The translations under genes and the position numbers were made by a program. The notes beneath the pieces were generated by a model that ran no database searches, was not told where the DNA came from, and saw nothing but the letters and a program-made list of their open reading frames with translations. From the NCBI GenBank assembly GCA_011390885.1, contig JAABRO010000021.1, forward strand, positions 1 through 48,195: a stretch of DNA of 48,195 bases, in the 5' to 3' direction. Below, piece after piece: positions 10,627-39,895 of the stretch; position 1 is the stretch's first letter, and every line of letters starts with the position of its first letter. The DNA is from Gemmatimonas sp. Its GTDB lineage: Bacteria; Gemmatimonadota; Gemmatimonadetes; Gemmatimonadales; Gemmatimonadaceae.

Positions 10627-10629
10627 CGC

Positions 10630-21940: not shown

Positions 21941-24900
21941 ATGAGTGATCACATCGAACTGCCCGCCGGATCTGCCGAGACCGACATCGCCATCGTGGGA
22001 ATGGCCGGTCGCTTTCCAGGTGCGCGCGATGTCGAGGAGTATTGGGCCAACCTGCGCGGCGGCGTGGAGAGCGTCACGTGGCTCACCGACGAGCAGCTGC
22101 GCGCGGCCGGCGTGCCCGAGGAGCTGATCGCCGACCCGCAGTACGTGAAGGCCTGCTATCCGCTCCCGGACATGGAGGGCTTCGACGCCGGCTTCTTCGG
22201 CTTCGCGCCGCGCGAGGCCAGCATCATGGATCCGCAGCAGCGACACTTCCTCGAACTGGCGTGGACCGCCCTCGAGTACGCCGGCCACGACCCCGCGCGC
22301 TTCGACGGCTCCATCGGCGTGTACGCCGGATGCGGTGCGAGCTCGTACCTCATGTTCAACCTGCTCTCCAACCCGGAGCTGGTGCAGAGCACGGGGATGT
22401 TCCTGTTGCGCCACACGGGCAATGACAAGGACTTCCTGGCCACGCGCGTTTCGTACCTCATGAACCTGCGGGGCCCGAGCGTGAACGTGCAGACGGCGTG
22501 CTCCACGTCGCTGGTCGCGATCCACGCCGCAGTGCAGTCGCTGCTCAACCACGAATGCGACCTTGCGCTCGCGGGGGGCAGCACGCTCAAGCAGCCGCAC
22601 ACGGTGGGGTACAAGTACGAGGAGGGCGAGATCATGTCGCCCGACGGCCACTGCCGGAGCTTCGACGAGAAGGCCGAGGGCACGATCTTCGGCAGCGGCG
22701 CGGGGGTGGTGGTGCTGCGCCGCCTCGTGGATGCGATCCGGGACGGCGACACGATCCACGCCGTGATCAAGGGCTCGGCCATCAACAACGACGGGTCGCA
22801 GAAGGTGGGTTACCTCGCGCCGAGCGTGGACGGGCAGGCGGCCGTCATCGAGGAGGCGCTCCGCCTCGCCGATATCTCGCCGGAGGATGTGCAGTACGTG
22901 GAGTGCCACGGCACGGCGACTCCGGTGGGTGATCCGATCGAGGTGACGGCGCTCACGCAGGCGTACCGCTCGGCCGGCGCTCAGCACAATGGCTACTGCG
23001 CCATCGGCACGGTCAAGTCGAACATCGGACATCTGGACACGGCTGCGGGTGTCGCCGGCGTCATCAAGACGGTGCAGGCGCTCAAGCATCGCGAGATTCC
23101 GCCGTCGCTGCACTACACGGCGCCCAATCCGGCCATCGATTTCGAGACCAGTCCGTTCTTCGTCAACGCGACGCTGCGGACGTGGGAGACCGATGGGCGT
23201 GCGCGCCGCGCGGGTGTGAGCGCTCTTGGCGCGGGTGGCACCAATGCGCATGTCGTGCTCGAGGAGGCGCCGGCGCTGCCGCCGTCATCACCCGCGCGCG
23301 ACCTGCAGCTGTACGTGCTGTCGGCGAAGACCCCCTCGGCGCTCGATGCGCAGGCCATGAACCTCGCCGATTTCCTCGAGCGCACCGACGCGCCTGCGGC
23401 CGATGTCGCCTTCACGCTGGCCGCGGGCCGCCATGCGTTCGCGCATCGCCGTGCCGTCGTCGCCGCGTCCGCGCACGAAGCCGCCGCGCTGCTCCGGGCC
23501 AACGATCCGAAGCAGCTGCCCTCGGGCACCGTGTCGGATCGGCCGCGCTCCGTCGCGTTCATGTTCGCCGGTGGTGGCGCACAGCACCCCGGCATGGGCG
23601 AGGATCTCTATCGCACCGAGGCGGTCTACCGCGCGGCAGTGGACGAGTGCATCGCGCTGCTGCAGCCGCGGCTGGATTGGGACCTCAAGGCGCTGCTCTA
23701 CCCGCCCGTCGCGCAGCGTGAAGCGCTCGCGGCGGAGATGGAGCGCCCGTCTCGCTCGCTGCCCTGCCTGTTCATCACGCAGTACGCCATGGCAAAGCAG
23801 TGCCTCGCGTGGGGGCTCGAGCCCTCGGCCATGATCGGGCACAGCATGGGTGAGTACACGGCGGCGCATCTGGCGGGCGTATTCTCGCTTGCCGATGGGC
23901 TCGCCCTCGTCACCCTGCGTGGCCAGCTCTTCGAGAAGGTGCCCGCGGGCGGCATGCTCAGCGTGTCGCTGTCGGCCGAGGAGCTGGCGAAGCGGTTGCC
24001 GCCGGAGCTCTCGATCGCGGCGGTGAACGCGCCCGAGCTGTGCGTGGCGTCGGGACCGCTCGACGCGCTCGAGCGTCTCGAGGCGGCGCTCGAGGCCGAT
24101 GAGATCGACAGCCGCCGCGTGCGCATCAACATTGCGGCGCACTCGAGCATGCTCGAGCCCATCCTTGCCGAGTTCGGTGCCTTCTTCCGCGGGATCACGC
24201 TGTCGGCGCCCGAGCGGCCGTTCGTCTCGAATGTGAGCGGCACCTGGATCACCGCCGAGCAGGCCACCTCGCCGGACTACTGGGTGCGACACCTGCGCCA
24301 GACGGTGCGCTTCGCCGACGGCGTGGGCGTGCTGCTCGAGGACGCCGGTCGCGTGCTGGTGGAGGTGGGGCCGGGGCGCATCCTCGCCACGCTGGCGGGC
24401 CTGCACCCGGCGCGGTCGAAGGAGCAGGTCACGCTCACGTCGATGCGGCACCCCGACGAAGCCGCGCACGATGTCGCGCACGCGCTCGGCCTGCTGGGGC
24501 GCGCGTGGGTGGCTGGTGTCCCGCTGCGGAGCGAGGCGCTGTGGCATGATGAACGGCGGCGTCGCCTGCCGCTCCCCACGTACCCGTTCGAGCACCAGCC
24601 GTACTTCATTGCGCCGGGCAAGCCGGCGGTGGCGGCGCCCTCGCTCGCCAAGCGCGCCGATGTGGGCTCGTGGTTCCACGCGCCTGCGTGGGTGCGCTCG
24701 CCGGTGCAGCCGTCCGATGTGCCGGCCGATGCGCGCTGGCTCGTGTTCCATGACGACCAGGGCACCGGTCGTGCCCTCGTCGAGGCGCTCGTGCAGCGTG
24801 CGGGCCGCGTCGACGCCGTGATCTCCGTGATCCCCGGCGATGGCTATGCGGCCATCGACGCGCGCACGTTCCGGATCGACCCGTCGGAGCCGGAGCACGC

Positions 24901-27628
24901 GAGCCGCGTGCTCGCGGCGCTCGGGGCGGCGGGCGGTGTGCCCTCACGCGTGGTGCACGCGCTCAACCTCGATGCGCCGCCCGCCTCCACGGCCGAGGTG
25001 GAGGGGCGCGCGTTCTACAGCCTGCTCGGCCTGCTGCAGGGGATCGCCGCCGAGGGGATCGAGACGCCGCTGCGACTCGATGTGCTCACGGCGGGAGTGC
25101 ACCATACCGGTGGCGAAGCGATGTTCGAGCCGCGCCGCGCCCTGGTGCTGGGCCCGGTGCGCGTCGCCTCGCGCGAGCTCCCGAACGTCACCGCGCGGGC
25201 CGTCGATGTCCCGCTCGCCGCGTCGGCCGCGGCGGGCTCCCGGCTCGTTGCGCAGCTGCTGGCGGAACTGCACGGCGACGGTGAGGGACAGGTGGTCGCG
25301 TGGCGCGGGACGACCCGCCTCGCGCAGTCGTTCACGGCCTTGCCGATGCGTGCGTCGGACAGTGCGTCGTCGTGGATCCGCGACGGCGCGGTGGTGCTCG
25401 TGACCGGCGGTCTGGGTGGCCTCGGCCTGCTCGTGACCCAGGAGCTGGCGCGCGCGGCGCGCGCCCGCTTCGTGCTGCTGGGCCGTGGCGGCCTGCCGGA
25501 TCGCAGCGCGTGGCCAGCGGTGCTCGCCGCCGGTGGGGCGGCCGCCGAGCGGGTGCGCGGCGTGCAGGCACTCGAGGCGCTCGGTGCCGAGGTGTTCGTG
25601 GCGCAGGCCGACGTGAGCGATGCCGCGCAGGTGGTGCGCGCGGTCGGAGAGGCGCAGGCACGATTCGGTGGCATCACGCACCTGGTGCATGCGGCCGGCC
25701 TGGTGGAGGACGCGCTCATTCCGCTCAAGGAGCGCGCCTCGGCCGCGCGCGTGCTGGCGCCCAAGGTGAGCGGCACGCTCGCCCTCGAGGCCGCGCTCGC
25801 CCAGGCGCCGCTCGAGCGCGTAGTGCTGTTCTCGTCACGTGGTGCGGTGGCGGGTGTGGCCGGTCAGGTGGACTACACGGCGGCGAGTGCGTTCCTCGAT
25901 GCGTGGGCCGAGAGCAAGGCGGCCACGAACGGCGTGCCCACGCTCTCCATCGACTGGAGCGCGTGGCAGGGGGTCGGTATCGCGGCCGCACTCACCGCGC
26001 CCCCCGCGCCCGAGGGGCGCACGACGTCGCACGCGCTGCTCGAACGGTGCGTTCGCGAGAGCGACGCCGAAACGGAGTACCGCTCCACGCTCACGCCGTC
26101 GTCGCATTGGCTGCTCGACGGCCATCGCATCCGCGGCGGCGAATCGCTCATTCCCGGCACCGGGTATCTCGAGATCGTGCGCGCCGCCGCCACGGAGCGC
26201 GTACCGGCGCCGCGCCTCGAACTGCGCGACGTGTACTTCATCGCGCCGTTCATGGTGCACGACGGGGCGTCACGCGAGCTGCGCATCACCCTCGAGGGCA
26301 CCGACGAGCGCGATGTCGTGATCGAGGGGCGTGCCTCCGGCTCGGCGCCGTGGGAAGAGCACGCGCGTGCGCTCGTCGCGCCGCTCGCCGGCGAGGCACC
26401 GGTCGCGGTCGATCCGGCCTCCATCCGTGCCCGCTGCACCGCGCGCCATGTCACCTTCACGGGGAGCGAGAAGCGAGAGCATCTCGTGCTCGGCGAACGG
26501 TGGAGCAACATCCGCGCGCTGGACTACGGCGAGGCCGAGGCGCTGGCCACGCTCGAACTGCCGGCGGAGTACGTGGAGGAACTGGGCGCGTATCCCCTGC
26601 ACCCGGCGCTGCTCGACGTGGCCACCGCGTGTGCGCAGGCGCTCATTCCCGGCTTCGACGGCGCGCGCGACTTCTACATTCCCGTGTCCTACGGGCGCGT
26701 GCGCGTCTGGGCCCCGCTCGAAGCATCGTGCGTGAGCCACATCCGACTGCAGCCGGGTGCCGAAGGGCAGGACACGGCCGTGTACGATGTCACCGTCCAC
26801 GCGGCCGATGGCCGCGTGCTGGTGGACATTGCCGACTTCACGATGATGAAGGTCAAGGATCGGGTGCAGGTGGGGCATGGTCCGGCCGCGGCGCCGGCTG
26901 TTCCGCTGCAGATGCGTGCCGCCATCCTGCCGGAGGAGGGACTCGATGCCTTCCGGCGCCTGCTGACGGCCGACGTGACCGGACAGGTGGTGGTCTCGCC
27001 GCAGGACCTCGGGGCGTACCTCGATGCGCTGAATGCGCCGGAACCCGCGGCCGCGCCGCCGGAGCGCGCCGAGACGCGGGAGCCGGCCGTGGACGTGAGC
27101 GAAGTGGAGGCGGTGCTGGCCACGCACGAGTCGGTGCACACCGTGGTGGTCACGGCGCACCGGGAGCGGGCGGGCACGCTGCGCGTGACCGCGTTCGTGG
27201 TGTTCGAACTGGGAGAGCAGGCCACGGTGTCGGAGATCCGGCGCTACCTGCGCGGCAAGGTGCCGGAGGACTTGGTTCCGCAGCACCTCATCGAGCTCGA
27301 GGAGCTGCCGCTCGGTCCCGACGGGGCCGTGGACCGCAGCGCGCTGCCCGACCCGTTCGCCGGCCAGGACGACCTCGTCGGCCCCCGGACGGACATGGAA
27401 CACACCATCGCGAAGATCTGGATGGAGCTGCTGGGCGTGACCAAGTTGAGTGTGTACGATAATTTTCTCGATGTGGGCGGTCACTCGCTGCTCGCGATGC
27501 GCGCCGTCTCGCGCATCGCGAAGGCCACGAGCGTGCGCCTCAACCCATCCGTGATGACCCTGCACACCCTCGAACAGATCGCCGCCGAGTGCGCCGAGAA
27601 GTCGGCGCTCAGCGGGGCGGCGCGATGA
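21941..27628 (+). CDS. type I PKS: KS-AT-KR-DH-(A-subdomain remnant)-carrier
   Basis: This 1895-residue PKS module should extend the chain handed over by the NRPS by one ketide unit. The ketosynthase (1-440) has Cys187 in TACSTS and His323/His364. The acyltransferase (about 545-860) has GHSMGE with Ser635; its specificity motif reads AAHSS, so extender choice is unclear. The ketoreductase (about 910-1370) has TGGLGGLG (1155-1162) and Tyr1312 in DYTAAS, where the usual Asn is Ser. The dehydratase-like region (about 1375-1700) has His1395 and Asp1559. The order KR before DH is the reverse of the standard one. Residues about 1720-1806 look like the C-terminal subdomain of an adenylation domain, with Ala at the catalytic A10 Lys. 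The carrier Ser1849 sits in a PCP-like GGHS. GAGGA at 21925-21929 may serve as ribosome site. Confidence 0.95.
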   Translation: MSDHIELPAGSAETDIAIVGMAGRFPGARDVEEYWANLRGGVESVTWLTDEQLRAAGVPEELIADPQYVKACYPLPDMEGFDAGFFGFAPREASIMDPQQRHFLELAWTALEYAGHDPARFDGSIGVYAGCGASSYLMFNLLSNPELVQSTGMFLLRHTGNDKDFLATRVSYLMNLRGPSVNVQTACSTSLVAIHAAVQSLLNHECDLALAGGSTLKQPHTVGYKYEEGEIMSPDGHCRSFDEKAEGTIFGSGAGVVVLRRLVDAIRDGDTIHAVIKGSAINNDGSQKVGYLAPSVDGQAAVIEEALRLADISPEDVQYVECHGTATPVGDPIEVTALTQAYRSAGAQHNGYCAIGTVKSNIGHLDTAAGVAGVIKTVQALKHREIPPSLHYTAPNPAIDFETSPFFVNATLRTWETDGRARRAGVSALGAGGTNAHVVLEEAPALPPSSPARDLQLYVLSAKTPSALDAQAMNLADFLERTDAPAADVAFTLAAGRHAFAHRRAVVAASAHEAAALLRANDPKQLPSGTVSDRPRSVAFMFAGGGAQHPGMGEDLYRTEAVYRAAVDECIALLQPRLDWDLKALLYPPVAQREALAAEMERPSRSLPCLFITQYAMAKQCLAWGLEPSAMIGHSMGEYTAAHLAGVFSLADGLALVTLRGQLFEKVPAGGMLSVSLSAEELAKRLPPELSIAAVNAPELCVASGPLDALERLEAALEADEIDSRRVRINIAAHSSMLEPILAEFGAFFRGITLSAPERPFVSNVSGTWITAEQATSPDYWVRHLRQTVRFADGVGVLLEDAGRVLVEVGPGRILATLAGLHPARSKEQVTLTSMRHPDEAAHDVAHALGLLGRAWVAGVPLRSEALWHDERRRRLPLPTYPFEHQPYFIAPGKPAVAAPSLAKRADVGSWFHAPAWVRSPVQPSDVPADARWLVFHDDQGTGRALVEALVQRAGRVDAVISVIPGDGYAAIDARTFRIDPSEPEHASRVLAALGAAGGVPSRVVHALNLDAPPASTAEVEGRAFYSLLGLLQGIAAEGIETPLRLDVLTAGVHHTGGEAMFEPRRALVLGPVRVASRELPNVTARAVDVPLAASAAAGSRLVAQLLAELHGDGEGQVVAWRGTTRLAQSFTALPMRASDSASSWIRDGAVVLVTGGLGGLGLLVTQELARAARARFVLLGRGGLPDRSAWPAVLAAGGAAAERVRGVQALEALGAEVFVAQADVSDAAQVVRAVGEAQARFGGITHLVHAAGLVEDALIPLKERASAARVLAPKVSGTLALEAALAQAPLERVVLFSSRGAVAGVAGQVDYTAASAFLDAWAESKAATNGVPTLSIDWSAWQGVGIAAALTAPPAPEGRTTSHALLERCVRESDAETEYRSTLTPSSHWLLDGHRIRGGESLIPGTGYLEIVRAAATERVPAPRLELRDVYFIAPFMVHDGASRELRITLEGTDERDVVIEGRASGSAPWEEHARALVAPLAGEAPVAVDPASIRARCTARHVTFTGSEKREHLVLGERWSNIRALDYGEAEALATLELPAEYVEELGAYPLHPALLDVATACAQALIPGFDGARDFYIPVSYGRVRVWAPLEASCVSHIRLQPGAEGQDTAVYDVTVHAADGRVLVDIADFTMMKVKDRVQVGHGPAAAPAVPLQMRAAILPEEGLDAFRRLLTADVTGQVVVSPQDLGAYLDALNAPEPAAAPPERAETREPAVDVSEVEAVLATHESVHTVVVTAHRERAGTLRVTAFVVFELGEQATVSEIRRYLRGKVPEDLVPQHLIELEELPLGPDGAVDRSALPDPFAGQDDLVGPRTDMEHTIAKIWMELLGVTKLSVYDNFLDVGGHSLLAMRAVSRIAKATSVRLNPSVMTLHTLEQIAAECAEKSALSGAAR

Positions 27629-28413
27629 ACCCGTTCTACTTCGGCTCGTCGAAGTCGCCGCTGTACGGCGTGTACCATCCGCCGCGTGCGGGTGAGGGGG
27701 CGGGGAAGGCCGTGCTGCTGTGCTATCCCATGGGCGCCGAGTACATGCGCGCGCATCGAGCGTTCCGGCAGCTCACCACGCTGCTCGTGAAGGGCGGCGC
27801 GCATGTGCTGCGCTTCGATTATTTCGGCACCGGCGACTCGGCCGGTGAGGGGACGGAGGCGACCGTGGCACGGTGGCTCGAGGACATCGACGTGGCCATT
27901 GACGAGCTCAAAGAAACGGCGCAAACGACCTCGGTGACCATCGTGGGGCTGCGCTTCGGGGGCACGCTGGCCGCGCTGGCGAGCACGGAGCGCAACGATG
28001 TGGAGCAGGTCGTGCTCTGGGATCCGATCATCGATGGCACGCAGTACGTGCAGGACCAGCTGGCGGCGCACGAGGGGGAGCGGCGTCGGCGCGGCGGGCC
28101 GGCGAACGCGGAAACGGCAGGGGTGCACGGGTTCCCGCTCACGAGCGCGATGCGCGCGGCGATCGAGCCGATCGACCTGCTCACGTGGCCGGGTGGCAAC
28201 AGCCGCATCGAGATCGTGACCTCCGCGGAGCGCGAGGACGCGCGCGACCTGGCGGGTCGGCTCGCTGCGCGTGGTCGTGCGGTGCGCGCGCAGGTGTTCC
28301 CGAGCAACGGCAACTGGGCCGAATCTGACGCGTTCGGGTCGGCGCTGATTCCCCAGGGCATCATCCAGGGCGTGCTGGGGTGCGTTCTGGGAGACAAGGT
28401 GACGAGCGCATGA
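27625..28413 (+). CDS. alpha/beta-hydrolase-like protein, no nucleophile (cassette copy 1, member a)
   Basis: This 262-residue alpha/beta-hydrolase-fold protein begins at an ATG that overlaps the PKS stop (ATGA). The oxyanion and strand landmarks are clear (AVLLCYPMGAEY, RFDYFGTGDS, VVLWDP), but the nucleophile elbow reads GLRFGG with Arg110 where Ser would be. The homologue at 34275 has Arg at the same residue number. From memory, this GLRxG elbow and a following VLW phrase resemble exosortase A system-associated hydrolase 2. The protein may be a non-catalytic partner of the next gene product, or use another mechanism. Position directly after a carrier-protein domain suggests work on carrier-bound intermediates; that is inference. 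A frame opening upstream inside the PKS gene is discounted. Confidence 0.85.
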   Translation: MNPFYFGSSKSPLYGVYHPPRAGEGAGKAVLLCYPMGAEYMRAHRAFRQLTTLLVKGGAHVLRFDYFGTGDSAGEGTEATVARWLEDIDVAIDELKETAQTTSVTIVGLRFGGTLAALASTERNDVEQVVLWDPIIDGTQYVQDQLAAHEGERRRRGGPANAETAGVHGFPLTSAMRAAIEPIDLLTWPGGNSRIEIVTSAEREDARDLAGRLAARGRAVRAQVFPSNGNWAESDAFGSALIPQGIIQGVLGCVLGDKVTSA

Positions 28414-29279
28414 GAGAGAAGGCAGTCAAGTTCGGGGCCAATCGCGGTCTCGTCGGCATCGTGGCGGAACCCACCGTGCCGGTGGCCGGCAAGCCGGCGG
28501 TCGTGCTGCTCAACTCCGGCATCCTGCACCATGTGGGGGCCTCGCGGCTCTACGTGCGGGTTGCCCGTCGTCTCGCGGCGGCCGGACACGCCACGCTGCG
28601 GTTCGACTTTTCAGGGATCGGCGATTCCGAACCGCGCAGGGACACGCTCGGCGCCGCCGAGAGTGCGGTGGTCGAGACGCGTGAGGCGATGGACCTGCTG
28701 CAGACCCGCAAGGGTGGCACTGACCGATTCATCCTGTTCGGGTTGTGCTCCGGGGCCGACATGGGCTTCAAGACGGCCGGCGTTGACGAGCGCGTGGTGG
28801 GGCTGGTGCAGCTGGATCCATTTGCGTATCGCACGCGCGGGTACTATGTGCACCACTATGGCCCGAAGCTGGTCAGCGTGGATGCGTGGCGGAACTACGT
28901 GAGCGTGCGCGTTCGGCGCTGGCGCGCGAAGCGGGAGGCGGCGCGGCGGGTGCCGGGCGCGGTCGACGAGGAGCGCCTGGAGTACGTGGCTCCCGAGTAT
29001 CGCCGCATCTTTCCGCCGCGCGAGCAGACGAAGGCGAGGCTGGAGGCGCTGCTCGCTCGGCGCGTGCAGCTGCTCAATGTCTTCTCGAGCGGCATGCCCG
29101 ACCACTACAATCACGAGCGGCAGTACCGGGACGCCTTCGCCGACATCGACTTCGGCAATCAGCTGCAGGTGGACTTCATTGCGGGCGCCGAGCACACGTT
29201 CACCTATCTCCCCGACCAGGAGCGGGTGCTCGAGATCGTCGATCGCTGGGCCCAGCGCGTCTTCCCAGGATCCGGCTGA
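28410..29279 (+). CDS. alpha/beta hydrolase with Cys nucleophile (cassette copy 1, member b)
   Basis: This 289-residue alpha/beta hydrolase starts at ATG 28410, overlapping the previous stop (ATGA). Landmarks are LNSGILHHVGASR, LRFDFSGIGDS and an elbow FGLCSGAD in which Cys113 takes the nucleophile position. A late AEHTF provides a candidate catalytic His, and QLDPF may carry the acid. From memory, the G-x-C elbow resembles exosortase A system-associated hydrolase 1, which is reported to occur next to a second, distantly related hydrolase, as here. Cys hydrolases of this fold include dienelactone hydrolase, so thioester hydrolysis or acyl transfer is plausible. The homologue at 34988 repeats the same arrangement. 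Confidence 0.85.
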   Translation: MREKAVKFGANRGLVGIVAEPTVPVAGKPAVVLLNSGILHHVGASRLYVRVARRLAAAGHATLRFDFSGIGDSEPRRDTLGAAESAVVETREAMDLLQTRKGGTDRFILFGLCSGADMGFKTAGVDERVVGLVQLDPFAYRTRGYYVHHYGPKLVSVDAWRNYVSVRVRRWRAKREAARRVPGAVDEERLEYVAPEYRRIFPPREQTKARLEALLARRVQLLNVFSSGMPDHYNHERQYRDAFADIDFGNQLQVDFIAGAEHTFTYLPDQERVLEIVDRWAQRVFPGSG

Positions 29280-29299
29280 GCCGGCGGACGCGCCGCTCC

Positions 29300-30034
29300 A
29301 TGGCAACCACGATCGCCGAGGTGCGCCTCATCGACCTCCGACGCGTGCAGGCCGATGCATGGACGTTGCTCGACGAGGCGGAGCGCGTTCGCGCGGCGCG
29401 GTTCCGGCATCCGGAGGATGCGCGGCGCTGGATCGCGGCCCGCGCGGCGCTGCGCACCGAGCTCGGCGCGGCGCTCGAGGTCCCTGCGGCATCGCTCGTT
29501 TTCCGCTACAGCGCGCGCGGGAAGCCGGCGCTCGCCGGCGCCTCGGCTGGGCGGATCGCGTTCAACCTCAGCCACAGCGCGGAGTGGGTCGCCATTGCGA
29601 TGGTCCGCGCCATGGGCGACGGAGAGCCGCCGCCGGTGGGGGTCGATATCGAGGCGATTCGGCCGCTCGACGAACTCGCCGAACTGGTGGAACGCTGCTT
29701 CGCTCCCGAGGAGCGCGAGGCCTGGTGTGCGCTCGATGAAGCGCTGCGGCTCGCGGCCTTCTACCGCACCTGGGCCCGCAAGGAGGCCTGCGTGAAGGCC
29801 CTTGGCGTCGGCATTGGTGCGCCGCTCCACGCCGTCGACGTGAGGGACCCGGCATGGCCGCGCGTGCGCCTGACGGAGGCGCTCACCGGACACGAACACG
29901 CATGGTCGCTTCGCGACTTCGATGCAGCACCGGGCATCGTCGGCGCGCTCGCCGTGCCGAAGGCCGATGTGCTGTTGCAGGTGCACGACCTGTCCCGCGC
30001 AGGCGGAGAGTCGGAAGGTGACCGTGCCGCCTGA
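29300..30034 (+). CDS. Sfp-type 4'-phosphopantetheinyl transferase
   Basis: The product is 244 residues and would load phosphopantetheine from CoA onto the carrier Ser residues of the NRPS/PKS proteins in this operon. Family motifs are NLSHS, GVDIE (Mg-binding Asp116) and the WARKEACVKA segment (Lys161, Glu162). I used ATG at 29300, 20 bp after the hydrolase stop, because the frame upstream lies inside that gene. The length is normal for the Sfp group. It overlaps the next gene slightly, consistent with one transcript. Presence of a dedicated PPTase supports the cluster being self-sufficient. Confidence 0.96.
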   Translation: MATTIAEVRLIDLRRVQADAWTLLDEAERVRAARFRHPEDARRWIAARAALRTELGAALEVPAASLVFRYSARGKPALAGASAGRIAFNLSHSAEWVAIAMVRAMGDGEPPPVGVDIEAIRPLDELAELVERCFAPEEREAWCALDEALRLAAFYRTWARKEACVKALGVGIGAPLHAVDVRDPAWPRVRLTEALTGHEHAWSLRDFDAAPGIVGALAVPKADVLLQVHDLSRAGGESEGDRAA

Positions 30035-31355
30035 CCAACCGCCGCCTCGTCGGCGTTCAGCCACCGGCGTTGCAAGGTTCGCGACGTCCGCCGCGCTCGC
30101 CGGCCTCGTCGCATTCACGGCGTGCGACGCACGCGGCTCGAGCGGCGAGGCAACGGATGCCGTCACTGGTACCGCCGTGGCGACGGAGTCGCTGCCGCCC
30201 GCCGATTCCACGGGGGTCACCTTCCGCCTCGACACCGTTGCGACCGGACTGGAAGTGCCATGGGGGATCGCGGCGCTGCCGGACGGCCGGCTGCTGGTGA
30301 CCGAGCGACCGGGGCGCATCCGCGTGATCCGCGACGGCCTGCTCGACCCCGAGCCGTGGGCCACGCTCGACGTGTACGCTGAGGACCCGGGCATCGGACC
30401 GGAGTCCGGATTGCTCGGCATCGCGGTGTCCCCGGACTTCGCGAGGACAGGGCATGTATACGTCGTGGCCACGACGTGGCGGTCGGCGGGGGATCGCACG
30501 CGGGCGCTGTCCACGCGTCTGTCACGGCGTGTGCGCGGACTCTTCGACGAGACGGCCACGTTGCGGTATCGGAACCAGGTGCTCCGCCTGCGCGACGCGG
30601 ACGGGCGTGGGGTGGAGTCGGAGGTGATCGTCGAAGAACTGCCCGCCGCGTTCTATCACGCGGGCGGCGGCATCGCCTTCGGCCCCGATGCCATGCTGTA
30701 CGTGTCCATGGGCGACGCGCTCCTGCCGCGCCAGGCGCGCCTGCCGACCTCCTGGCTCGGGCGTGTGCATCGCTTCACCCCGGACGGACGCATTCCGACG
30801 GACAACCCAAACGCAGGCTCGTCCACCTGGGCGTTCGGGCTCCGGAACACGCAGGCGTTCGCGTGGCTCGACGACGGCACGATGGTGGGCGTCGAGCACG
30901 GGCCGACCGGGATGCCGCAGGAGGGCGGCCGGGCGGGGCACGACGAACTCAATGTGCTCGTCGCGGGGGGCGACTACGGCTGGCCCGACGCGCTCGGCGG
31001 CGAGTCGAGCCGCGGCAGTCGGCCGGCGATCTGGACATGGGGGGAGCCCATCGCTCCAGGCGGGATCGCGGTGTACCGCGGCCCGGTCGTTGGATGGCAG
31101 GGATCGCTTCTCGTAGCCGGGTTACGCGGACGGCTCGAGCGCGTCGTGCTCAGAAGGGAGGGCGACGTCTGGCAGGCGACGGCCACGGAGACGCTGATCG
31201 ACCGCGACCTCGGCCGCCTGCGCGCGGTTCTCGCGGATTCCACCGGCTCCGTATATCTCACCACCAGCAACCGTGATGCGCGCGGCGCACCACGGGCGAG
31301 CGATGACCTGCTCGTGCGGCTGACCCCCATGCCACCGGTCGACGATTCGCCGTGA
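30024..31355 (+). CDS. PQQ-type sugar dehydrogenase-like beta-propeller lipoprotein
   Basis: This roughly 443-residue protein has a twin-Arg-free signal and a lipobox-like FTAC near residue 31, so it is likely a lipoprotein outside the cytoplasm. The body is a six-bladed glucose/sorbosone dehydrogenase-type propeller: GLEVPWGIAALPDGRLLVTER, YHAGGGIAFGPD, AFGLRNTQAFAW and GVEHGPTG. Members oxidise sugars with PQQ or, in some, simply bind carbohydrate. The start is a GTG at 30024 with GGAAGG at 30013-30018; a GTG at 30018 is the alternative. It overlaps the PPTase gene by 11 bp and the following gene by a GTGA. Its place in the operon suggests extracellular sugar or aldose-type oxidation linked to the product, which is a guess. 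Confidence 0.85.
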   Translation: MPPDQPPPRRRSATGVARFATSAALAGLVAFTACDARGSSGEATDAVTGTAVATESLPPADSTGVTFRLDTVATGLEVPWGIAALPDGRLLVTERPGRIRVIRDGLLDPEPWATLDVYAEDPGIGPESGLLGIAVSPDFARTGHVYVVATTWRSAGDRTRALSTRLSRRVRGLFDETATLRYRNQVLRLRDADGRGVESEVIVEELPAAFYHAGGGIAFGPDAMLYVSMGDALLPRQARLPTSWLGRVHRFTPDGRIPTDNPNAGSSTWAFGLRNTQAFAWLDDGTMVGVEHGPTGMPQEGGRAGHDELNVLVAGGDYGWPDALGGESSRGSRPAIWTWGEPIAPGGIAVYRGPVVGWQGSLLVAGLRGRLERVVLRREGDVWQATATETLIDRDLGRLRAVLADSTGSVYLTTSNRDARGAPRASDDLLVRLTPMPPVDDSP

Positions 31356-32476
31356 TCATTGCCCAGATGCTCGAATCCGACGGCCCGGGCGGGGCCGAAC
31401 TCGTCGTGCTCCGGCTCGCGATCGAGCTGCGCCGGCGCGGGCACGATATCGTGCCGGTCGGTCCCACCAACGGCGTCGGCTGGCTGGGTGAGCGGTTTCG
31501 GGAGGCCGGCTTCGAGCCGGAGCAGTTCGGGCTGCGCCGCGCCGTCGATCCGAGTGGGCCGCGTCGGCTCGCGGAGATGCTGGCGCGTCGCGGTGTGCAG
31601 GCGGTGCACTCGCACGAGTTCACGATGTGCGTGTACGGTGCCGCAGCCGCGCGGCGGCTGGGCGTGCCGCATGTGACCACGATGCACGGCAGCCAGACCA
31701 TGACGCAGGCGTGGCGTCGCCGCGCGGCGCTGCGGTGGGCGTATCGACGAAGCCGGGCGGTCGTAGCCGTGTCGGAGGCCACGCGAGTCCAGCTCGAGGC
31801 GGATCTCGGCCTGCGCCCCGGCGTGCTCACCCTCGTGCGCAACGGTGTGCCGGTGGTGCGAGGCGATCGAGCCCGGGCGCGCGCGGAGTTCGGCCTCCGC
31901 GACGACGACGTCATGGTGCTCGCCGTCGGCAACCTCGATCCGCGCAAGGGACATCGCGTGCTGCTGGGCGCCCTGCAACAGCTCGTGGCGAACGGACTGG
32001 ACGTGCCGTGGCACCTCGTCATCGCGGGCGGCCGTGGCGGCCCTGAGCGGGAACCGCTGCTCGCCTTCGCCGCCGAGCATGGTATCGCCGACCGGGTGCA
32101 CGTGCTGGGGCAGCGCGAGGACGTGCCCGACCTGCAGGCCGCTGCCGACATCTTCGCCATGCCCTCGCTCTGGGAAGGGCTGCCGCTCGCGCTGCTCGAG
32201 GGGATGATCGCCGGCAACGCCTGCGTCGCCTCGCGCACCTCCGGCATCCCGGAAGCCATCACCGACGGGGAGCATGGGGTGCTGGTGCCGCCCGGTGATG
32301 TGGAATCCCTGGCGACCGCGCTGGCGCCCCTGCTGCGCGATCCGGCGCTGCGTGCCCGCTACGGGCAGGCTGCGTACGCACGCGCCATGCAGGAGTTCAC
32401 GATCGAGGCGATGACGGACCGCTACGAGGCGCTGCTCGGCGTCGGAGCCGGGCAGCTGGTCGGCGCAGGGCGGTAG
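31352..32476 (+). CDS. GT4 family glycosyltransferase
   Basis: This 374-residue GT-B enzyme starts at GTG 31352, overlapping the previous stop. The N-domain begins with DGPGGAELVVLRL, the glycine-rich acceptor loop, and has HSHEFT and TTMHG. The nucleotide-sugar half (about 185-360) has VGNLDPRKGH, FAMPSLWEGLPLALLEGM (the E-x7-E donor motif) and SGIPEAI. All landmarks of a retaining GT4 are intact. Its position between assembly-line genes argues that the peptide/ketide product, or a lipid carrier of it, is glycosylated. Sugar and acceptor are unknown. Confidence 0.93.
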   Translation: MIIAQMLESDGPGGAELVVLRLAIELRRRGHDIVPVGPTNGVGWLGERFREAGFEPEQFGLRRAVDPSGPRRLAEMLARRGVQAVHSHEFTMCVYGAAAARRLGVPHVTTMHGSQTMTQAWRRRAALRWAYRRSRAVVAVSEATRVQLEADLGLRPGVLTLVRNGVPVVRGDRARARAEFGLRDDDVMVLAVGNLDPRKGHRVLLGALQQLVANGLDVPWHLVIAGGRGGPEREPLLAFAAEHGIADRVHVLGQREDVPDLQAAADIFAMPSLWEGLPLALLEGMIAGNACVASRTSGIPEAITDGEHGVLVPPGDVESLATALAPLLRDPALRARYGQAAYARAMQEFTIEAMTDRYEALLGVGAGQLVGAGR

Positions 32477-32481
32477 CGCAC

Positions 32482-34278
32482 GTGGTCGACCTCTCGCATC
32501 CACCTGCGGTCGCCATCGCGGCCGACCTGCTCGCACGCATCGCGTCGCACGCCGCGGCATCACCCTCGGCGCCCGCGGTCACGCAGGGTGACGCGCGTCT
32601 CGCGTACGGCGCGCTCTGGGACGACGCCGGTCGCATCGCGCTCCGCCTCCGCGAACGCGGCCTCGGCGCCGAGGACATCGTGGGCATCCACGTCGCGCGC
32701 ACGCCGTCGCTCGTGGCGCTGCTGCTTGGCGTGTGGCGTGCCGGGGCCGCGTGGCTGCCGCTCGACCCGGCCTTTCCGGAAGAACGGCTGGCGTTCATGG
32801 TGCGTGACTCGGGCTGTCGCCTGGTGTGCGCGGACTCGCTGGTGTCGTGGCTGCCGCCGCAGGTCGAGTGTCGGGACCTGCTCGCCATGCCGACTGATGC
32901 GCCGCGCGAGGCAGTCACAGCGGGGGCGAACGGGGCGTGCTCCCCGCTCGATGTTGCGCCGCCGGCCGATCGGCTCGCGTACCTCATGTACACCTCCGGT
33001 TCCACCGGCCGCCCCAAGGGCGTGGAGGTCACGCACGGCGCGCTCGCCAACTTCCTGGGCGCGATGGCCGAGGTGCCCGGCATTGCGGCCGACGATGTCC
33101 TGCTCGCGGTCACCACGCTGTCGTTCGACATCGCGCTGCTCGATCTCTTCGTGCCGCTGTTCGTGGGCGCGCGCGTGGAGCTGGCGCCCGTGGAGGAGCA
33201 ACTCGCACCGGAGCGACTGCTCGCCCGACTCACCGCGTGCGGGGCCACGATCATGCAGGCCACGCCGGTGACGTGGCGCATGCTGCTCGGTGCGGGCTGG
33301 GGAGGCCGACTGCGCGCGGTGCTATGCGGCGGTGAGGCCTTCCCGCCGGACCTGCGCGCGCCGCTCGCCGCGCGCGCCGACGCGGTGTGGAACCTCTACG
33401 GGCCGACCGAAACGACTGTCTGGAGCACGGCCGCGCGCATCGAGGCGCTGCCCGAGGGGCGGCGCATCCCGATCGGCCAGCCGATCGCCAACACCCGCGT
33501 CTACGTGATGGACCCGGAAGGCCGCCCGCTGCCCGACGGTGAATCCGGAGAGCTGTGGATCGCGGGCACCGGCGTCGCGCGCGGCTATCGCGACCGGCCG
33601 GCGCTGCAGGCGCGGCAGTTCGTGGCGGATCCGGTCGTGTCCGGCGCTCGCGCCTACCGCACCGGCGACCTCGGTCGCGTGGCGGATGACGGGCAGCTCG
33701 AGCACCTCGGCCGCATCGACGAGCAGATGAAGCTGCACGGCTACCGGATCGAACCGGGAGAGGTCGAGGCTGCGCTGGCGGCCGTACCGGGGGTGCATCA
33801 GGCGGTCGTGGCGCTGGCCGGCCCGGAGGACGATCCGCGACTCGTCGGCTACGTGCGGTACACGACCGATGCGGCCTCGCGTCCGACCGCCTCCGCGATG
33901 CGGCGGCAGTTGCGCCGCACGCTGCCCGACTACATGGTGCCTGCCATGCTCGTGGAGATCGAACAGGTGCCGCTCACGCCCAACGGCAAGGTGGACCGGC
34001 GCGCGCTGCCGGATCCGTTCGCCGCGTCCGCGCGACCTGCGTCGTCGCCCGAGGACGACGCGCCGCGCACGCCGGTGGAGCGCGTGCTCGCGGGCGCCTG
34101 GCAGGCGATGCTCGTGCGCGACCGGGTCGGTCGGCACGACAACTTCTTCGAGCTCGGCGGGCATTCGCTGCTCGCGCTGCGCGTGGTGGAGGCGCTGGCG
34201 CGCGAGCACGGCCTCACCATCGACGTGCGCAGCCTGTTCTACCGCACGCTCGCGCAGGTGGCCGAGGAGGCGCGATGA
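32482..34278 (+). CDS. free-standing adenylation-PCP didomain, predicted glycine
   Basis: This 598-residue protein (GTG start at 32482) is an adenylation domain (about 20-510; YTSGSTG from 170, Asp216, A10 NGKVDR) followed by one PCP (Ser562 in GGHS). There is no condensation or thioesterase domain. Reading the ten specificity positions by alignment to GrsA gives DILQLGLVWK, the published glycine consensus to my knowledge. Such didomains load an amino acid that is later moved or modified in trans. It starts 5 bp after the glycosyltransferase and its stop overlaps the next hydrolase start (ATGA), so it is coupled to the second hydrolase cassette. In type-1 exosortase loci an AMP-ligase gene also neighbours the two hydrolases, a parallel worth testing. 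Confidence 0.93.
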   Translation: MVDLSHPPAVAIAADLLARIASHAAASPSAPAVTQGDARLAYGALWDDAGRIALRLRERGLGAEDIVGIHVARTPSLVALLLGVWRAGAAWLPLDPAFPEERLAFMVRDSGCRLVCADSLVSWLPPQVECRDLLAMPTDAPREAVTAGANGACSPLDVAPPADRLAYLMYTSGSTGRPKGVEVTHGALANFLGAMAEVPGIAADDVLLAVTTLSFDIALLDLFVPLFVGARVELAPVEEQLAPERLLARLTACGATIMQATPVTWRMLLGAGWGGRLRAVLCGGEAFPPDLRAPLAARADAVWNLYGPTETTVWSTAARIEALPEGRRIPIGQPIANTRVYVMDPEGRPLPDGESGELWIAGTGVARGYRDRPALQARQFVADPVVSGARAYRTGDLGRVADDGQLEHLGRIDEQMKLHGYRIEPGEVEAALAAVPGVHQAVVALAGPEDDPRLVGYVRYTTDAASRPTASAMRRQLRRTLPDYMVPAMLVEIEQVPLTPNGKVDRRALPDPFAASARPASSPEDDAPRTPVERVLAGAWQAMLVRDRVGRHDNFFELGGHSLLALRVVEALAREHGLTIDVRSLFYRTLAQVAEEAR

Positions 34279-35003
34279 TCCTGCACCCCTTCGGTGATCG
34301 TGAGGCGCAGCTCTTCGGCGCATTCGACCCGGCGGCGTCGCCGCGGCTGCGACGAGCCGTGCTGCTGCTGCACCCCGCCGGCTGGGAGTACGTGCGGGCG
34401 CATCGCACGATGCGGCTGCTCGCGTTGCGCCTGGCGGCTGCAGGCATCGACGCATTCCGTTTCGACTACCGCGGCACCGGCGACTCGTGGGGCGACGACG
34501 ACGAGTCGCTCACGCTCGAGGATTGGGTGCGCGACGCCGAGGAGGCCGCCGAGGAGCTGCAGGCACTCGCTGGTGTTGGTCGCGTGTCCCTCGTGGGGCT
34601 GCGCGCCGGCGCGCGCGTCGCGCTCGAGGTCGTGGCGCGCCGCACGGTGCCCGTCGATCGCGTGGTGCTCTGGGATGTGCTGGAGCTCGAGCAGCCGGTG
34701 CCCGCGTCGGCGGGCAATGCCGACGGCATCGAATCGTCTGAACGTCCCTCGCTGCGTGTACCGCCCGGCGTGATCCGCGATCTGGGCCGTACGCGACGAC
34801 CCGGGATCGCGGCGACCACGCACCGTCTGCTGCGCGTGCAGTCCGACGGCGCGCCGACCGCATCCGACCTTGCGGGGCTCGAGGCCGAGTCGACGCTCGC
34901 CGTTGCCGGATGCCCTCCATGTTGGATCGAGGAGCGGGATTTCGGCGCCGGAGCCGTGCCTGCGCCGCTCATCGAGGGGATCGTGTCATGGCTTCGGAGT
35001 TGA
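34275..35003 (+). CDS. alpha/beta-hydrolase-like protein, no nucleophile (cassette copy 2, member a)
   Basis: This 242-residue homologue of the protein at 27625 shares RAHR near residue 40, RFDYRGTGDS and VVLWD. The elbow again has Arg110 in place of the nucleophile (GLRAG). The C-terminal half is shorter and more divergent than in copy 1. Its ATG overlaps the stop of the A-PCP gene, so the order carrier protein, then this member, then a Cys hydrolase is the same as at 27628. Conservation of the missing nucleophile in both copies argues that it is a real feature rather than decay. A scaffolding or partner role is inferred. Confidence 0.85.
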   Translation: MILHPFGDREAQLFGAFDPAASPRLRRAVLLLHPAGWEYVRAHRTMRLLALRLAAAGIDAFRFDYRGTGDSWGDDDESLTLEDWVRDAEEAAEELQALAGVGRVSLVGLRAGARVALEVVARRTVPVDRVVLWDVLELEQPVPASAGNADGIESSERPSLRVPPGVIRDLGRTRRPGIAATTHRLLRVQSDGAPTASDLAGLEAESTLAVAGCPPCWIEERDFGAGAVPAPLIEGIVSWLRS

Positions 35004-35908
35004 CTCCCGTGTTTCCATCGTCCGGCGACGTGCCCGCGCGTCGGGTGCTGGAGCGTCCATTGCTCTTCGGTCGGCACGGGACGCTGGTGGGCGTGCTCAG
35101 CACGCCGGCGCAGGGCGCACGTGCGGTGCCGGTGCTGTTGCTGGCCGGCGGGATCATTCACCGGGTGGGGCCGTCGCGGTCGCTCGTGCGCATCGCGCGC
35201 TCGCTCGCGGCTGCAGGCCATCCGTGTCTGCGCTTCGACCTCTCGGGCGTGGGCGACAGCGCGCGTGCGCCCGAATCGTCGTTGCAGGCGGCCGCCGTGG
35301 CGGACATCCGCGACGCGATCGGCACGCTGCTCGCGCAGGCGGCCTCGCTGGCGGGCGGTGATGCACCGCCGGACCGGGTGGCGCTGGTGGGCTTCTGCTC
35401 CGGCGCGGACAATGCGTTGCATGTGGCCGCAGACGATTCACGGGTGGACGGGCTGGTGCTCTTCGATCCGACCGTGCACCGCACGAGTGGATTCCGGCGC
35501 CGCGAACTCGCGCGTCGCTTGCACAGCCACGAGGCCTTCGTGAACCTCGTGAGCGGGCGGTCGCTGATGAAGCGACTGGAGTCGCTGCGGGAGCGGAGCG
35601 CGCCGGTGTTCCCGCCGGAGTACTACGGACTGCTGAGCTCCGATCCCGAGGACACCGATGCTCGGGTCGCGCGGCTCTCTGCCCGCGGTGCGCGCCGGCT
35701 CTGGGTGCTGAGCCGCGACGTGCAGCGCTACTGCAATGCGCCGGAGCAGGTGATGGAAGCGCTGCCCCGCGGCTGGCGCGAAACGCTCGACACCGTTGTC
35801 TGGGCCACCGAACTGGATCACGTGCTCAGCACGCGCGCGCAGGTGGATCGCTTCGTGACGATGGCGCTGGCGTGGCTCGAGCGCGGCGAACGACGCGAGG
35901 CCGCGTAG
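34988..35908 (+). CDS. alpha/beta hydrolase with Cys nucleophile (cassette copy 2, member b)
   Basis: This 306-residue homologue of the protein at 28410 has HRVGPSR, LRFDLSGVGDS and an elbow VGFCSGAD with Cys137 as the likely nucleophile. ELDHVL near the end offers the catalytic His. ATG at 34988 overlaps the preceding gene by 16 bp and fits the homologue's N-terminus; a frame opening at 34910 is less likely. It closes the long rightward operon: the stop is only 8 bp from the convergent exosortase stop, with no terminator between. Activity on a thioester or acyl-carrier intermediate is plausible but unproven. Confidence 0.85.
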   Translation: MASELTPVFPSSGDVPARRVLERPLLFGRHGTLVGVLSTPAQGARAVPVLLLAGGIIHRVGPSRSLVRIARSLAAAGHPCLRFDLSGVGDSARAPESSLQAAAVADIRDAIGTLLAQAASLAGGDAPPDRVALVGFCSGADNALHVAADDSRVDGLVLFDPTVHRTSGFRRRELARRLHSHEAFVNLVSGRSLMKRLESLRERSAPVFPPEYYGLLSSDPEDTDARVARLSARGARRLWVLSRDVQRYCNAPEQVMEALPRGWRETLDTVVWATELDHVLSTRAQVDRFVTMALAWLERGERREAA

Positions 35909-35916
35909 TTCGCGCG

Positions 35917-37452
35917 TCAGCGTGCGGAGGCGTCGTCCGCAAGCCCGCTGCCGGCCACGAAGTCGAGCAGCGCCTTCCCCGCATCACGGCAGTCGGGCCG
36001 TTCGCATGAGGCGCTGACCGCCACGAGTTCGGAGGCGGATGACCGTCGCACGAAGGCGAGCAGTTCGAGCAGCTTGGCACGCGACGTCGATGCCGTGACC
36101 TGGCCCGCGACGCGGTACCAGGACCAGACCAGCCGCGGACCAGCCGGCGTCCGCACCACGGTCACGTGCGCCTCCACACTGGCGTTGCCCAAGGGGCGCG
36201 TGCGTCCCTCGCCTGCGCGCAGGGAGTCGGGGGCGATGGTGTTGTCGTACTGAATGAGTTCCTTGCCCTGACGCTGTTCGGCGTAGAGGAGCCGGTCCAC
36301 CTGCACGCGTGCATCGCCGCGCTGCCAGTGAGTCTGCGCGGCGAGGTCTGCGCCGGAGAATGCGGGGCGGAACAGCGACGAGTCGCGAGGTGCCTCGGTC
36401 CACCCGGCCGGCGGGATCACTCGCGCCTGCTCGGCCAGTTCGTCGGCCGAGGCGCGAGTGCTGCCCGCGAGCAGCACGTAGAGGATCGGGCCGCTGACTG
36501 CGACCGATGTGGCGACGACGAGGCGGCGCAACGGCACCGGCGTCGAGGGGGTGACACTCGTCGCATCGGACGCGGTCACCACAGATGTGGCGAGTGTGTG
36601 CTCCTCGGCCATGTCGATGCGGCGAGCAACGGCGAGGAAGAGCGCCTGCGCGACGCCGAACAGGATCCAACCGTAGGTGCCGTGATCACGCACGAGCGGT
36701 GACTGCATGTCGGTGGCATGGCCGATCACGATCAGGCCGAACACCCGCAGCCAGTTCATCACGATCACGCCGACAACCGACGCGGCGATGACCATGACCC
36801 GCGCGCGCCACGTGCGCAGGAAGAGCAGCGCGTACGCGACGCCAACGAGCAGGCCGATCTGGAAGTAGTCGATGCCGGCACACCCCTCAGCCACCCAGAA
36901 GGTGCCGGCCGGAATGCGGATGAGGTCGCCGTCGATCGTCGCATCGATGCGGGCGACACGCAACAGCACGGTGTTGGCCAGCACCGTCAGCGACTGGAGC
37001 GGGCGCGTGAGCACGTTCCAGAAGGGCACCGCCAGAAGGAATGCGCCGGTGATCGGCAGCGCCGTCGGCAGCGGCGCGAAGCCGGCGGTGGCCACGAGCC
37101 ACGCGAGCAGCAGGAGGGGCAGGGCGCCCTGTTGCACCACCTGCACGTTTAGCACGAAGGCAGCGAGCCAGCACAGCGAGAGCCCTGCGACCGCGACGAG
37201 CGCGAGCGCCACGGGCCGACTTGTGGTGACCAGGCGCTCCCGGTCGCGCCAGAGCAGCCACAGAGCGAGCGCGGCGGCGGCAAAGCCGTGCTCCGCCGAG
37301 TTGAGCCAGCGGCCAGGGAAGCCGAGCCAGGTGGGGAGGAAGGCGACGGCGACGAGCAGCGCGAACACCGGGCGCCACCGATCAGCGGCGGTGGTGGCCC
37401 GGCCGACGGTCTGCGGCGTGAGCGGTCCTGACGTGATGAACTCGGTGGTCAC
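35917..37452 (-). CDS. exosortase fused to C-terminal EpsI domain
   Basis: This 511-residue polytopic membrane protein carries the exosortase triad in order: Cys191 in EGCAGID, Arg236 in NWLRVFG and His257 in DHGTYGW. Around eight hydrophobic helices span about residues 25-275. A linker with one further hydrophobic stretch (about 308-325) is followed by a roughly 190-residue EpsI-type C-terminal region. Exosortases are transpeptidase-like enzymes that process PEP-CTERM-type sorting signals at the membrane. EpsI is a companion that is separate in many genomes and fused in others. I chose GTG 37452; a GTG at 37518 would add 22 residues of atypical composition. No protein with a recognisable PEP-CTERM-like tail is encoded in the window. 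It is convergent with the hydrolase operon. Confidence 0.92.
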   Translation of the reverse strand: MTTEFITSGPLTPQTVGRATTAADRWRPVFALLVAVAFLPTWLGFPGRWLNSAEHGFAAAALALWLLWRDRERLVTTSRPVALALVAVAGLSLCWLAAFVLNVQVVQQGALPLLLLAWLVATAGFAPLPTALPITGAFLLAVPFWNVLTRPLQSLTVLANTVLLRVARIDATIDGDLIRIPAGTFWVAEGCAGIDYFQIGLLVGVAYALLFLRTWRARVMVIAASVVGVIVMNWLRVFGLIVIGHATDMQSPLVRDHGTYGWILFGVAQALFLAVARRIDMAEEHTLATSVVTASDATSVTPSTPVPLRRLVVATSVAVSGPILYVLLAGSTRASADELAEQARVIPPAGWTEAPRDSSLFRPAFSGADLAAQTHWQRGDARVQVDRLLYAEQRQGKELIQYDNTIAPDSLRAGEGRTRPLGNASVEAHVTVVRTPAGPRLVWSWYRVAGQVTASTSRAKLLELLAFVRRSSASELVAVSASCERPDCRDAGKALLDFVAGSGLADDASAR

Positions 37453-39103: not shown

Positions 39104-39895
39104 ATGGCGCCCGTGCGCCTGCTCGCCTTTCCCTACGCCGGCGGGGGACCGTTCAGCTACCTGCACTGGACGCGCCTGCTCTCGTCCGATGTCGAGCTGC
39201 GGGTGGTGTCGGCGCCGGGACGCGACCTGCGCGAGCACGAAGGTGAGGAGCCGCACCTCGAGGCGTGGCTCGACGCCATCACGGCGGAGCTGCTGGCCGA
39301 TCCTGGCGTGCCGCTCGCGCTCCTCGGGCACAGCCTGGGCGCCCTCATGGCATTCGAGGTGGCGCGTCGCCTCGCCGCGGCCGGCCGGCCACCGGTTCAC
39401 CTCGTGGTGTCGGCCAAGGCACCAGCCGGCGTGCGCGAGGAAGACGCCGCGCTGCGACGGTTGCCCGATGCGCCGCTGCTCCAGGCGATTCGTGAGCGAT
39501 TCGGAGGGCTGCCGGAGGAGCTCGAAGAGGATCCCGAGCTGCTGGCGACCGTGCTGCGGCGCCTGCGCAATGACCTGCAGCTGCTCGAGCAGTTCGAGGC
39601 CCGCACCGGGTCGCCGCTCGCACTCCCGCTCACCGTGTTGTGGAGCACGGACGACCGGAGCGTGAACGAGGCGCAGATGCGGCAATGGGGAACGCTCGTG
39701 TCGGGGGAAGTCCGATACCGTGCCTTCCCCGGCGGGCACTTCTTTCTCGTTGAACACGCGGCGGCGGTCTGCCGCATCGTGGCGGAGGCGCTCGCCGCCG
39801 GGCGCGACGGGCACCCGCTTCAGGAGCGGGCCGCGGCACGAGCTGAGGCGCAGCACCTGGAGCGCGCCGCCGATCGGGGAGAGCGCGACTCATGA
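39104..39895 (+). CDS. type II thioesterase
   Basis: This 263-residue external thioesterase clears misprimed acyl groups from carrier proteins. It begins MAPVRLLAFPYAGGGPFSYLHW-like, typical of the GrsT/LipT family, with the nucleophile elbow GHSLGA, a late Asp in LWSTDD and the catalytic His in FPGGHFFL. Length and motifs are normal. ATG 39104 is preferred; GTG 39065 would add 13 residues. Its stop overlaps the next gene's start (ATGA), so it is the first gene of the second assembly-line operon. As no terminal thioesterase domain is encoded here, product release must use a domain downstream or another mechanism. Confidence 0.93.
   Translation: MAPVRLLAFPYAGGGPFSYLHWTRLLSSDVELRVVSAPGRDLREHEGEEPHLEAWLDAITAELLADPGVPLALLGHSLGALMAFEVARRLAAAGRPPVHLVVSAKAPAGVREEDAALRRLPDAPLLQAIRERFGGLPEELEEDPELLATVLRRLRNDLQLLEQFEARTGSPLALPLTVLWSTDDRSVNEAQMRQWGTLVSGEVRYRAFPGGHFFLVEHAAAVCRIVAEALAAGRDGHPLQERAAARAEAQHLERAADRGERDS

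Follow-up and report, generated by a model that had tools for sequence, protein, structure and literature searches.

Paired alpha/beta-hydrolase-like proteins with an Arg/Cys split behind carrier-protein genes, candidate subunits of an off-loading enzyme

Two hydrolase-like gene pairs in the window

In the DNA of Gemmatimonas sp. analysed here, two pairs of alpha/beta-hydrolase-like genes, each with a member a and a member b, stand directly behind genes that end in a carrier protein, one of them beside an exosortase gene. What do such pairs do at carriers, and do they belong to the exosortase system? The window, which is the whole stretch of 48,195 nucleotides that was analysed, is an exopolysaccharide (EPS)/exosortase locus with NRPS/PKS genes inside. 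Its features are as follows (coordinates, strand where recorded, description).

733-14224: left-hand exopolysaccharide genes, labelled from sequence (deacetylase, sugar transferase, Wza-type export, Wzz/BY-kinase, glycosyltransferase, AsnB, flippase)
14490-21926, +: NRPS upstream of the PKS, with a carrier at its end and a luciferase-like domain inserted
21941-27628, +: PKS (KS-AT-KR-DH), carrier-terminated (Pfam PP-binding, residues 1822-1882), without thioesterase
27625-28413, +: member a1, hydrolase-2-like pseudoenzyme of the alpha/beta-hydrolase fold, with Arg110 at the nucleophile elbow and a Trp near the usual His position
27952-27954, +: Arg110 codon of a1 (GLRFGG)
28410-29279, +: member b1, hydrolase-1-like alpha/beta hydrolase with Cys113/His262
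28746-28748, +: codon of the nucleophile Cys113 of b1 (GLCSGAD)
29300-30034, +: phosphopantetheinyl transferase, 3' of pair 1
31352-32476, +: family 4 glycosyltransferase, between pair 1 and pair 2
32482-34278, +: A-PCP didomain with a terminal carrier (Pfam PP-binding, residues 543-595), immediately 5' of a2
34275-35003, +: member a2 (Arg110), of a lineage common to Thioalkalivibrio and Piscinibacter
34602-34604, +: Arg110 codon of a2 (GLRAGA)
34988-35908, +: member b2 (Cys137), of the lineage common to Thioalkalivibrio and Piscinibacter
35396-35398, +: codon of the nucleophile Cys137 of b2 (GFCSGAD)
35917-37452, -: exosortase (PF09721, 5.7e-45) with an EpsI/DUF3485 domain at the C-terminus (2.4e-16), convergent with b2
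39104-39895: ordinary type II thioesterase (TEII) with a PF00975 match

An earlier note on this DNA had described two a-b pairs in the same order, and all four open reading frames were present where it had placed them, with Arg110 in both a copies and Cys113 and Cys137 as the nucleophiles of b1 and b2. The close spacing that it had reported behind the carrier-ending genes was also confirmed. The PKS stop and the a1 ATG overlapped by 4 bp (ATGA), as did a1 with b1 and the A-PCP stop with a2, and the overlap between a2 and b2 was 16 bp, which suggests translational coupling at these junctions. Both upstream genes were carrier-terminated according to the Pfam PP-binding model and had no thioesterase domain. 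No signal peptide was evident by eye in a1, b1, a2 or b2. A phosphopantetheinyl transferase was also found in the flanks of 23 of the 80 related loci surveyed below, and homologues of the left-hand EPS genes were present in other exosortase loci.

Family profiles, catalytic residues and trees

Profile searches revealed that the best NCBIfam model was TIGR03101 for a1 (101.2 bits, E 6.8e-29) and a2 (66.1 bits, E 3.5e-18), and TIGR03100 for b1 (88.0 bits, E 6.2e-25) and b2 (88.8 bits, E 3.5e-25), as the earlier note had anticipated. All four scores were well under the curated cut-offs of these equivalog models (202.75 for TIGR03101, hydr2_PEP; 168.45 for TIGR03100, hydr1_PEP). Membership in the equivalogs was therefore rejected, and the four proteins are relatives of hydrolases 2 and 1, not members. 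When 298 Gemmatimonadota genomes were searched with the TIGR03101 profile, matches at E <= 1e-15 were obtained in 19, and in no genome did a match exceed the cut-off. The traits of a1 and a2 fitted hydrolase 2, with Arg at the nucleophile position, a carrier gene on the 5' side and a hydrolase 1 on the 3' side, and those of b1 and b2 fitted hydrolase 1, with a Cys-His catalytic pair and a hydrolase-2-like partner. In Pfam, the gathering score of Hydrolase_4 (PF12146; 27) was passed by a1 (37.1 bits), a2 (34.9 bits) and b1 (33.6 bits); b2 fell under it at 21.2 bits but passed Abhydrolase_6. The Pfam Thioesterase model (PF00975) gave no match for a or b of the window.

The proposed division into one catalytic and one non-catalytic member extended to all aligned sequences. 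The nucleophile position of a was occupied by Arg in 138 of 142 sequences and by Gly in the other four, and Ser, Cys or Asp was found in none of the 142. The same position of b held Cys in 143 of 144 sequences, the single Ser being that of locus L144. The His of b was kept in all 142 sequences covering that position, and the acid of the triad was retained after strand 6 or 7 in 140 of 144. Near the position of this His, member a carried a Trp in 96 of the 108 sequences of the NRPS type and in 20 of the 23 of the exosortase type. The bona fide hydrolase 2/1 pairs of exosortase A loci showed the Arg/Cys split together with the His in 22 of 22 cases. These residue patterns imply that a is a pseudoenzyme and that selection maintains b as an enzyme. 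Single-chain models predicted the full alpha/beta-hydrolase fold for both a and b (pLDDT 92.8 and 93.4), and the nearest solved structures found by Foldseek were ordinary lipases and feruloyl esterases.

When eight ordinary Hydrolase_4 proteins from the same genome served as the outgroup of a tree, the a members of the NRPS, fused and exosortase types, hydrolase 2 included, formed one clade (95/83) and the b members with hydrolase 1 another (100/98); a quick tree agreed, and the tree is a rough one, its outgroup not being cleanly one-sided and its bootstrap not fully settled (correlation 0.983). The two clades mirrored each other, and in each of them the exosortase type split from the fused and NRPS types. 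The two types occurred together in three of 12 genomes or records (Accumulibacter G308 and G309, Rhodoferax G317), where a bona fide exosortase-type member and an NRPS-type pair were both present, which argues that they are parallel lines. The earlier note had called the cassette of the window duplicated, a reading that did not survive this analysis. The identity was only 33% between a1 and a2 and 34% between b1 and b2, and pair 2 grouped with the pairs of Thioalkalivibrio and Piscinibacter among the a as well as among the b sequences (100/97 and 100/99), apart from pair 1, so the two pairs are separate lineages and local duplication was rejected.

Co-occurrence of a and b and the tie to exosortases

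To find related loci, 84,980 species genomes were scanned with patterns from b only, the catalytic motif being excluded; the patterns came from a closer set of four b proteins, the alignment of 11 diverse b proteins being too variable. The scan gave 80 loci from about ten phyla, which spanned Gemmatimonadota, Myxococcota, Acidobacteriota, Planctomycetota, Chloroflexi, KSB1, Zixibacteria, Bacteroidetes and others and included alpha-, beta- and gammaproteobacteria. Member a adjoined b in 78 of the 80 loci, in the order a-b in 77 and b-a in one (L126), and the remaining two (L098, L136) had b at a contig end. Both members were also present in all of 34 further loci collected through TIGR03101, TIGR03100 or synteny. 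Metagenome-assembled genomes are the source of most loci. The models for a and b were built from the family that they counted, with the nucleophile columns unused in selection. The distance matrices of a and b correlated with a Mantel r of 0.82, which none of 2000 permutations reached and to which species history contributes. These results showed that a and b are inherited together.

As to the tie to exosortases, the one reported 8 bp away is genuine and does lie 8 bp from b2, but it is arranged tail to tail with it and thus is a neighbour outside the operon of b2. In G004, a genome of the same genus, the second pair likewise had an exosortase at a distance of about 4 kb. The Thioalkalivibrio pair, which is the nearest relative of window pair 2, shared a stretch of about 30 kb with an exosortase, PrsK, PrsT, Wza, Wzz, a deacetylase, AsnB, FemAB, an ACP-like gene, a ligase, a phosphopantetheinyl transferase and then C-A-PCP - a - b. 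Exosortase loci were located 20-37 kb from the pair in G083, G106 and G318, and an exosortase lay within 40 kb of the pair in G004, G083, G106, G311 and G318. The pair was near an exosortase in 6 of the 18 genomes having both (about four independent lineages), against a chance expectation, roughly estimated, of 2% per genome for an 80-kb window. On the other hand, no exosortase was tagged by blastp within 10 kb on either side of the pair in the 80 surveyed loci, and 9 of the 15 Gemmatimonadota genomes with pairs had none at all. The pair therefore does not need an exosortase, and dependence of the NRPS-type pairs on it was rejected. Of the tie to exosortase loci that had been proposed, the kinship with hydrolases 1 and 2 stood; the tie appears to be one of common ancestry and frequently shared loci, not of dependence.

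Carrier contexts and a candidate off-loading reaction

An analysis of the gene contexts, labelled by blastp and HMM searches with references from these same loci rather than by full annotation, revealed NRPS/PKS genes in 72 of the 80 surveyed loci. Over all sets, a stood directly behind a carrier-terminated gene in 73 of 111 scorable cases and was fused behind a carrier in 16, which extends the carrier link seen in the window. The fused form of the A-PCP/a2/b2 arrangement of the window was found in Planctomycetes bacterium CA13 (L125), where A-PCP-a is one chain and is followed by b. In the remaining 22 of the 111, no carrier was immediately upstream, some of these having a phosphopantetheinyl transferase in between, a reversed order or a gap, and one pair (L097) was surrounded by housekeeping genes only.

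Most likely, as judged from sequence, the pair is a heteromer of pseudoenzyme and Cys enzyme that removes acyl or peptidyl groups from carriers by way of an acyl-S-Cys intermediate, and a and b are probably the two subunits of one such off-loading enzyme. The Cys of b would attack the thioester on the carrier phosphopantetheine to give acyl-S-b, a thioester exchange expected to be nearly energy-neutral. Member a would hold the carrier or complete the active site, or both, and would exclude water. The group would then be handed by b to an acceptor such as a sugar, an amine, a lipid or a second carrier, not merely hydrolysed. For the window this would mean that the NRPS-PKS product is released from the PKS carrier by pair 1 and the amino acid from the A-PCP by pair 2. 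The pairs without a carrier immediately upstream, the Foldseek proximity of both members to ordinary lipases and feruloyl esterases, and the single b with Ser count against this explanation.

The position of the pair is also what would be expected of a split type I thioesterase, with Cys for Ser, which would free the completed chain from the final carrier by hydrolysis or cyclisation. Within NRPS/PKS clusters the place of the pair is exactly that expected of a thioesterase, the upstream genes lack one, and a may follow the final carrier in the same chain. Where the upstream gene was separate, at most 54 amino acids followed the carrier, so a thioesterase domain does not fit there. Against this explanation, the pair is used with single free ACPs in two other settings. 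In the XrtA locus of Sphingomonas parapaucimobilis, where the exosortase was confirmed within the same locus, an ACP was followed by a "hypothetical protein" and by "hydrolase 1, exosortase A system-associated", and an AMP-binding protein and a PLP-dependent decarboxylase were also present. Free ACP - a - b was the prevailing order in the betaproteobacterial loci whose TIGR03101 match exceeded the cut-off; the exosortase usually lay outside these 20-kb stretches, and for G308, G309, G317, G382, G425 and G439 its presence in the genome was confirmed. The third branch had a and b fused in one protein, with a TIGR03101-like N-terminal half and a TIGR03100-like C-terminal half, in loci of Azospirillum, Rhizobium and Gemmatimonadota containing an ACP, an acyl-CoA dehydrogenase, an amino acid:ACP ligase, DUF1839 and GH2; the fused protein of Azospirillum in L069 has 592 amino acids. 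A polysaccharide locus of Shinella, in which the fused protein occurred with an ACP, an AMP-binding ligase and a type III PLP enzyme, bridges the exosortase A and amino acid:ACP ligase contexts. The constant neighbour of hydrolases 2 and 1 was the free carrier and not the AMP ligase named in the earlier note. Plain hydrolysis at single free ACPs would only reverse the ligase, and the strict preference of Cys over Ser (143/144) favours thioester exchange, so that a split thioesterase appears rather improbable, though of the alternatives it deserves the most weight. Transfer is favoured over hydrolysis by the Cys and by the use with single ligase-charged ACPs; Cys nucleophiles also occur in hydrolytic enzymes, and the sequence does not decide between the two.

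Editing of misloaded carriers by a TEII-like activity would agree with stand-alone genes near a carrier, canonical TEIIs also being discrete alpha/beta hydrolases, and LgnA has dual TEII/aminoacyltransfer activity (PMC8748450). An ordinary TEII is already encoded in the window, however, and four other loci (L093, L104, L108, L121) also have one beside the pair. A stoichiometric step would explain better than housekeeping why there is one pair per terminal carrier and why a is fused to carriers, and we consider an editing role very unlikely. Least credible of all is that a and b are esterases or hydrolases of EPS processing which only happen to be encoded in the same loci as carriers. The exosortase A, Variovorax, Shinella, Thioalkalivibrio and window loci are indeed EPS loci, but a recognised glycan gene was present in the flank of only 18 of the 80 surveyed loci, in contrast to the 72 with NRPS/PKS genes, and neither the a-carrier fusions nor the four window proteins, with no signal peptide evident by eye, agree with such a role.

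For the off-loading enzyme, glycosyltransferase or EPS genes close by in several loci make a glycan or lipid plausible as a candidate acceptor. A much broader scheme would make the pair a general pseudoenzyme-assisted off-loader: groups built by an NRPS/PKS or by a ligase would be moved to a glycan or lipid of the cell surface, and the pair of exosortase loci would make or load the acceptor for sorted proteins. This scheme is speculative and seems unlikely as a whole, if slightly less so than editing. D-alanylation (Dlt), in which a ligase, a carrier and a hydrolase-like protein pass an acyl group to a surface polymer, resembles this arrangement in logic only.

SyrC and CmaE have a Cys nucleophile and an alpha/beta-hydrolase fold. 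Together with LgnA, which is of the TEII type, they are aminoacyl shuttles that move an aminoacyl group between carriers through an acyl-enzyme (PMC8748450), and the transfer proposed for b would resemble theirs. Unlike the a-b pair, all three are single proteins without a pseudoenzyme partner, and LgnA uses Ser. Type I and II thioesterases (PF00975) have the end-of-line position in common with the pair, which differs from them in having two subunits, Cys, a dead partner and no PF00975 match in Pfam. The loci of amino acid:[carrier protein] ligases (ACP, ACAD, aaRS-like ligase, DUF1839, GH2) contain the fused a+b; their free ACP is charged by the aaRS-like ligase and not by an A domain. The exosortase A hydrolases 1 and 2 share the tree clades, the carrier-a-b order and the Arg/Cys split with the window pairs; the window members, at 66-101 bits against cut-offs of 203 and 168, serve NRPS/PKS carriers, and many hosts have no exosortase. 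The names hydrolase 1 and 2 are already in NCBIfam, without an assigned function. A literature search confined to open-licence papers, and hence weak as evidence of novelty, turned up no account of the Arg/Cys pair, of its carrier syntax or of its NRPS and fused branches, and the only text match for TIGR03100 was a study of Burkholderia cenocepacia in which the hydrolase-1 protein Bcam1334 was named as a possible polysaccharide hydrolase (PMC3584217).

The observation of the earlier note is thus confirmed, and its interpretation is largely supported, the profile searches, trees and genome survey that it had named all turning out in its favour. The link of hydrolases 1 and 2 to the large group of NRPS/PKS-terminal pairs found across phyla gives a concrete functional hypothesis, in which a Cys enzyme that requires an inactive twin would act on carrier-bound acyl groups, as could be tested by assembly-line chemistry. 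The hypothesis predicts how many thioesterase-less assembly lines release their product, and an Arg-elbow and Cys-elbow hydrolase pair behind a carrier would be annotated as a putative off-loading device.

Position of the triad acid and unusual copies of b

The position of the triad acid in the b proteins, the hydrolase-1-like cysteine enzymes of the pairs, seemed to shift between types (residues 136 and 227-231 of b1, the first b protein of the window). Every exosortase-type b protein (23 of 23) and every fused a+b protein (11 of 11) had the acid behind strand 7 and an Asn behind strand 6; in the majority of the NRPS-type b proteins the acid followed strand 6. Two copies were unusual at the nucleophile:
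L144 9995-10885, the sole b with Ser replacing Cys (GLSSG)
L028 45-731, a b gene without the nucleophile segment

The L144 locus came from a Rhodoferax MAG, which also carried a bona fide hydrolase 1. The L028 gene is probably a decayed copy.

Gene settings of the pairs in other genomes

The fused a+b gene was found in a conserved six-gene locus together with genes for a free carrier (ACP), an acyl-CoA dehydrogenase, an amino acid:[carrier protein] ligase, a DUF1839 protein and a large GH2-like protein, the last being odd for a carrier pathway. This locus occurred in Gemmatimonadota and Proteobacteria:
L026 9194-16834
L064 3787-11810
L069 1330-8942
L070 1012-8664
L230
L231

Variovorax loci with pairs were as follows:
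L068 6399-12501
L145
L148-L152

The order NRPS - PPTase - a - b was observed in L068, L145, L148, L149 and L151, and was directly followed by polysaccharide export genes in L068. The pair at L097 3019-4709 was surrounded by housekeeping genes, with no carrier seen nearby; it is either an orphan or acts on a carrier encoded elsewhere.

Exosortase and assembly line of the window

The window exosortase (35917-37452) contained an EpsI domain and scored below the cut-offs of both subtype models, XrtA (180.6, cut-off 208) and XrtW (122.5, cut-off 425). In the first NRPS (14490-21926), a luciferase-like monooxygenase domain was inserted into an adenylation domain at about residues 1746-2048. The carrier - class III aminotransferase - condensation protein at 45330-48194 extends past the edge of the window, and the assembly line continues beyond it.
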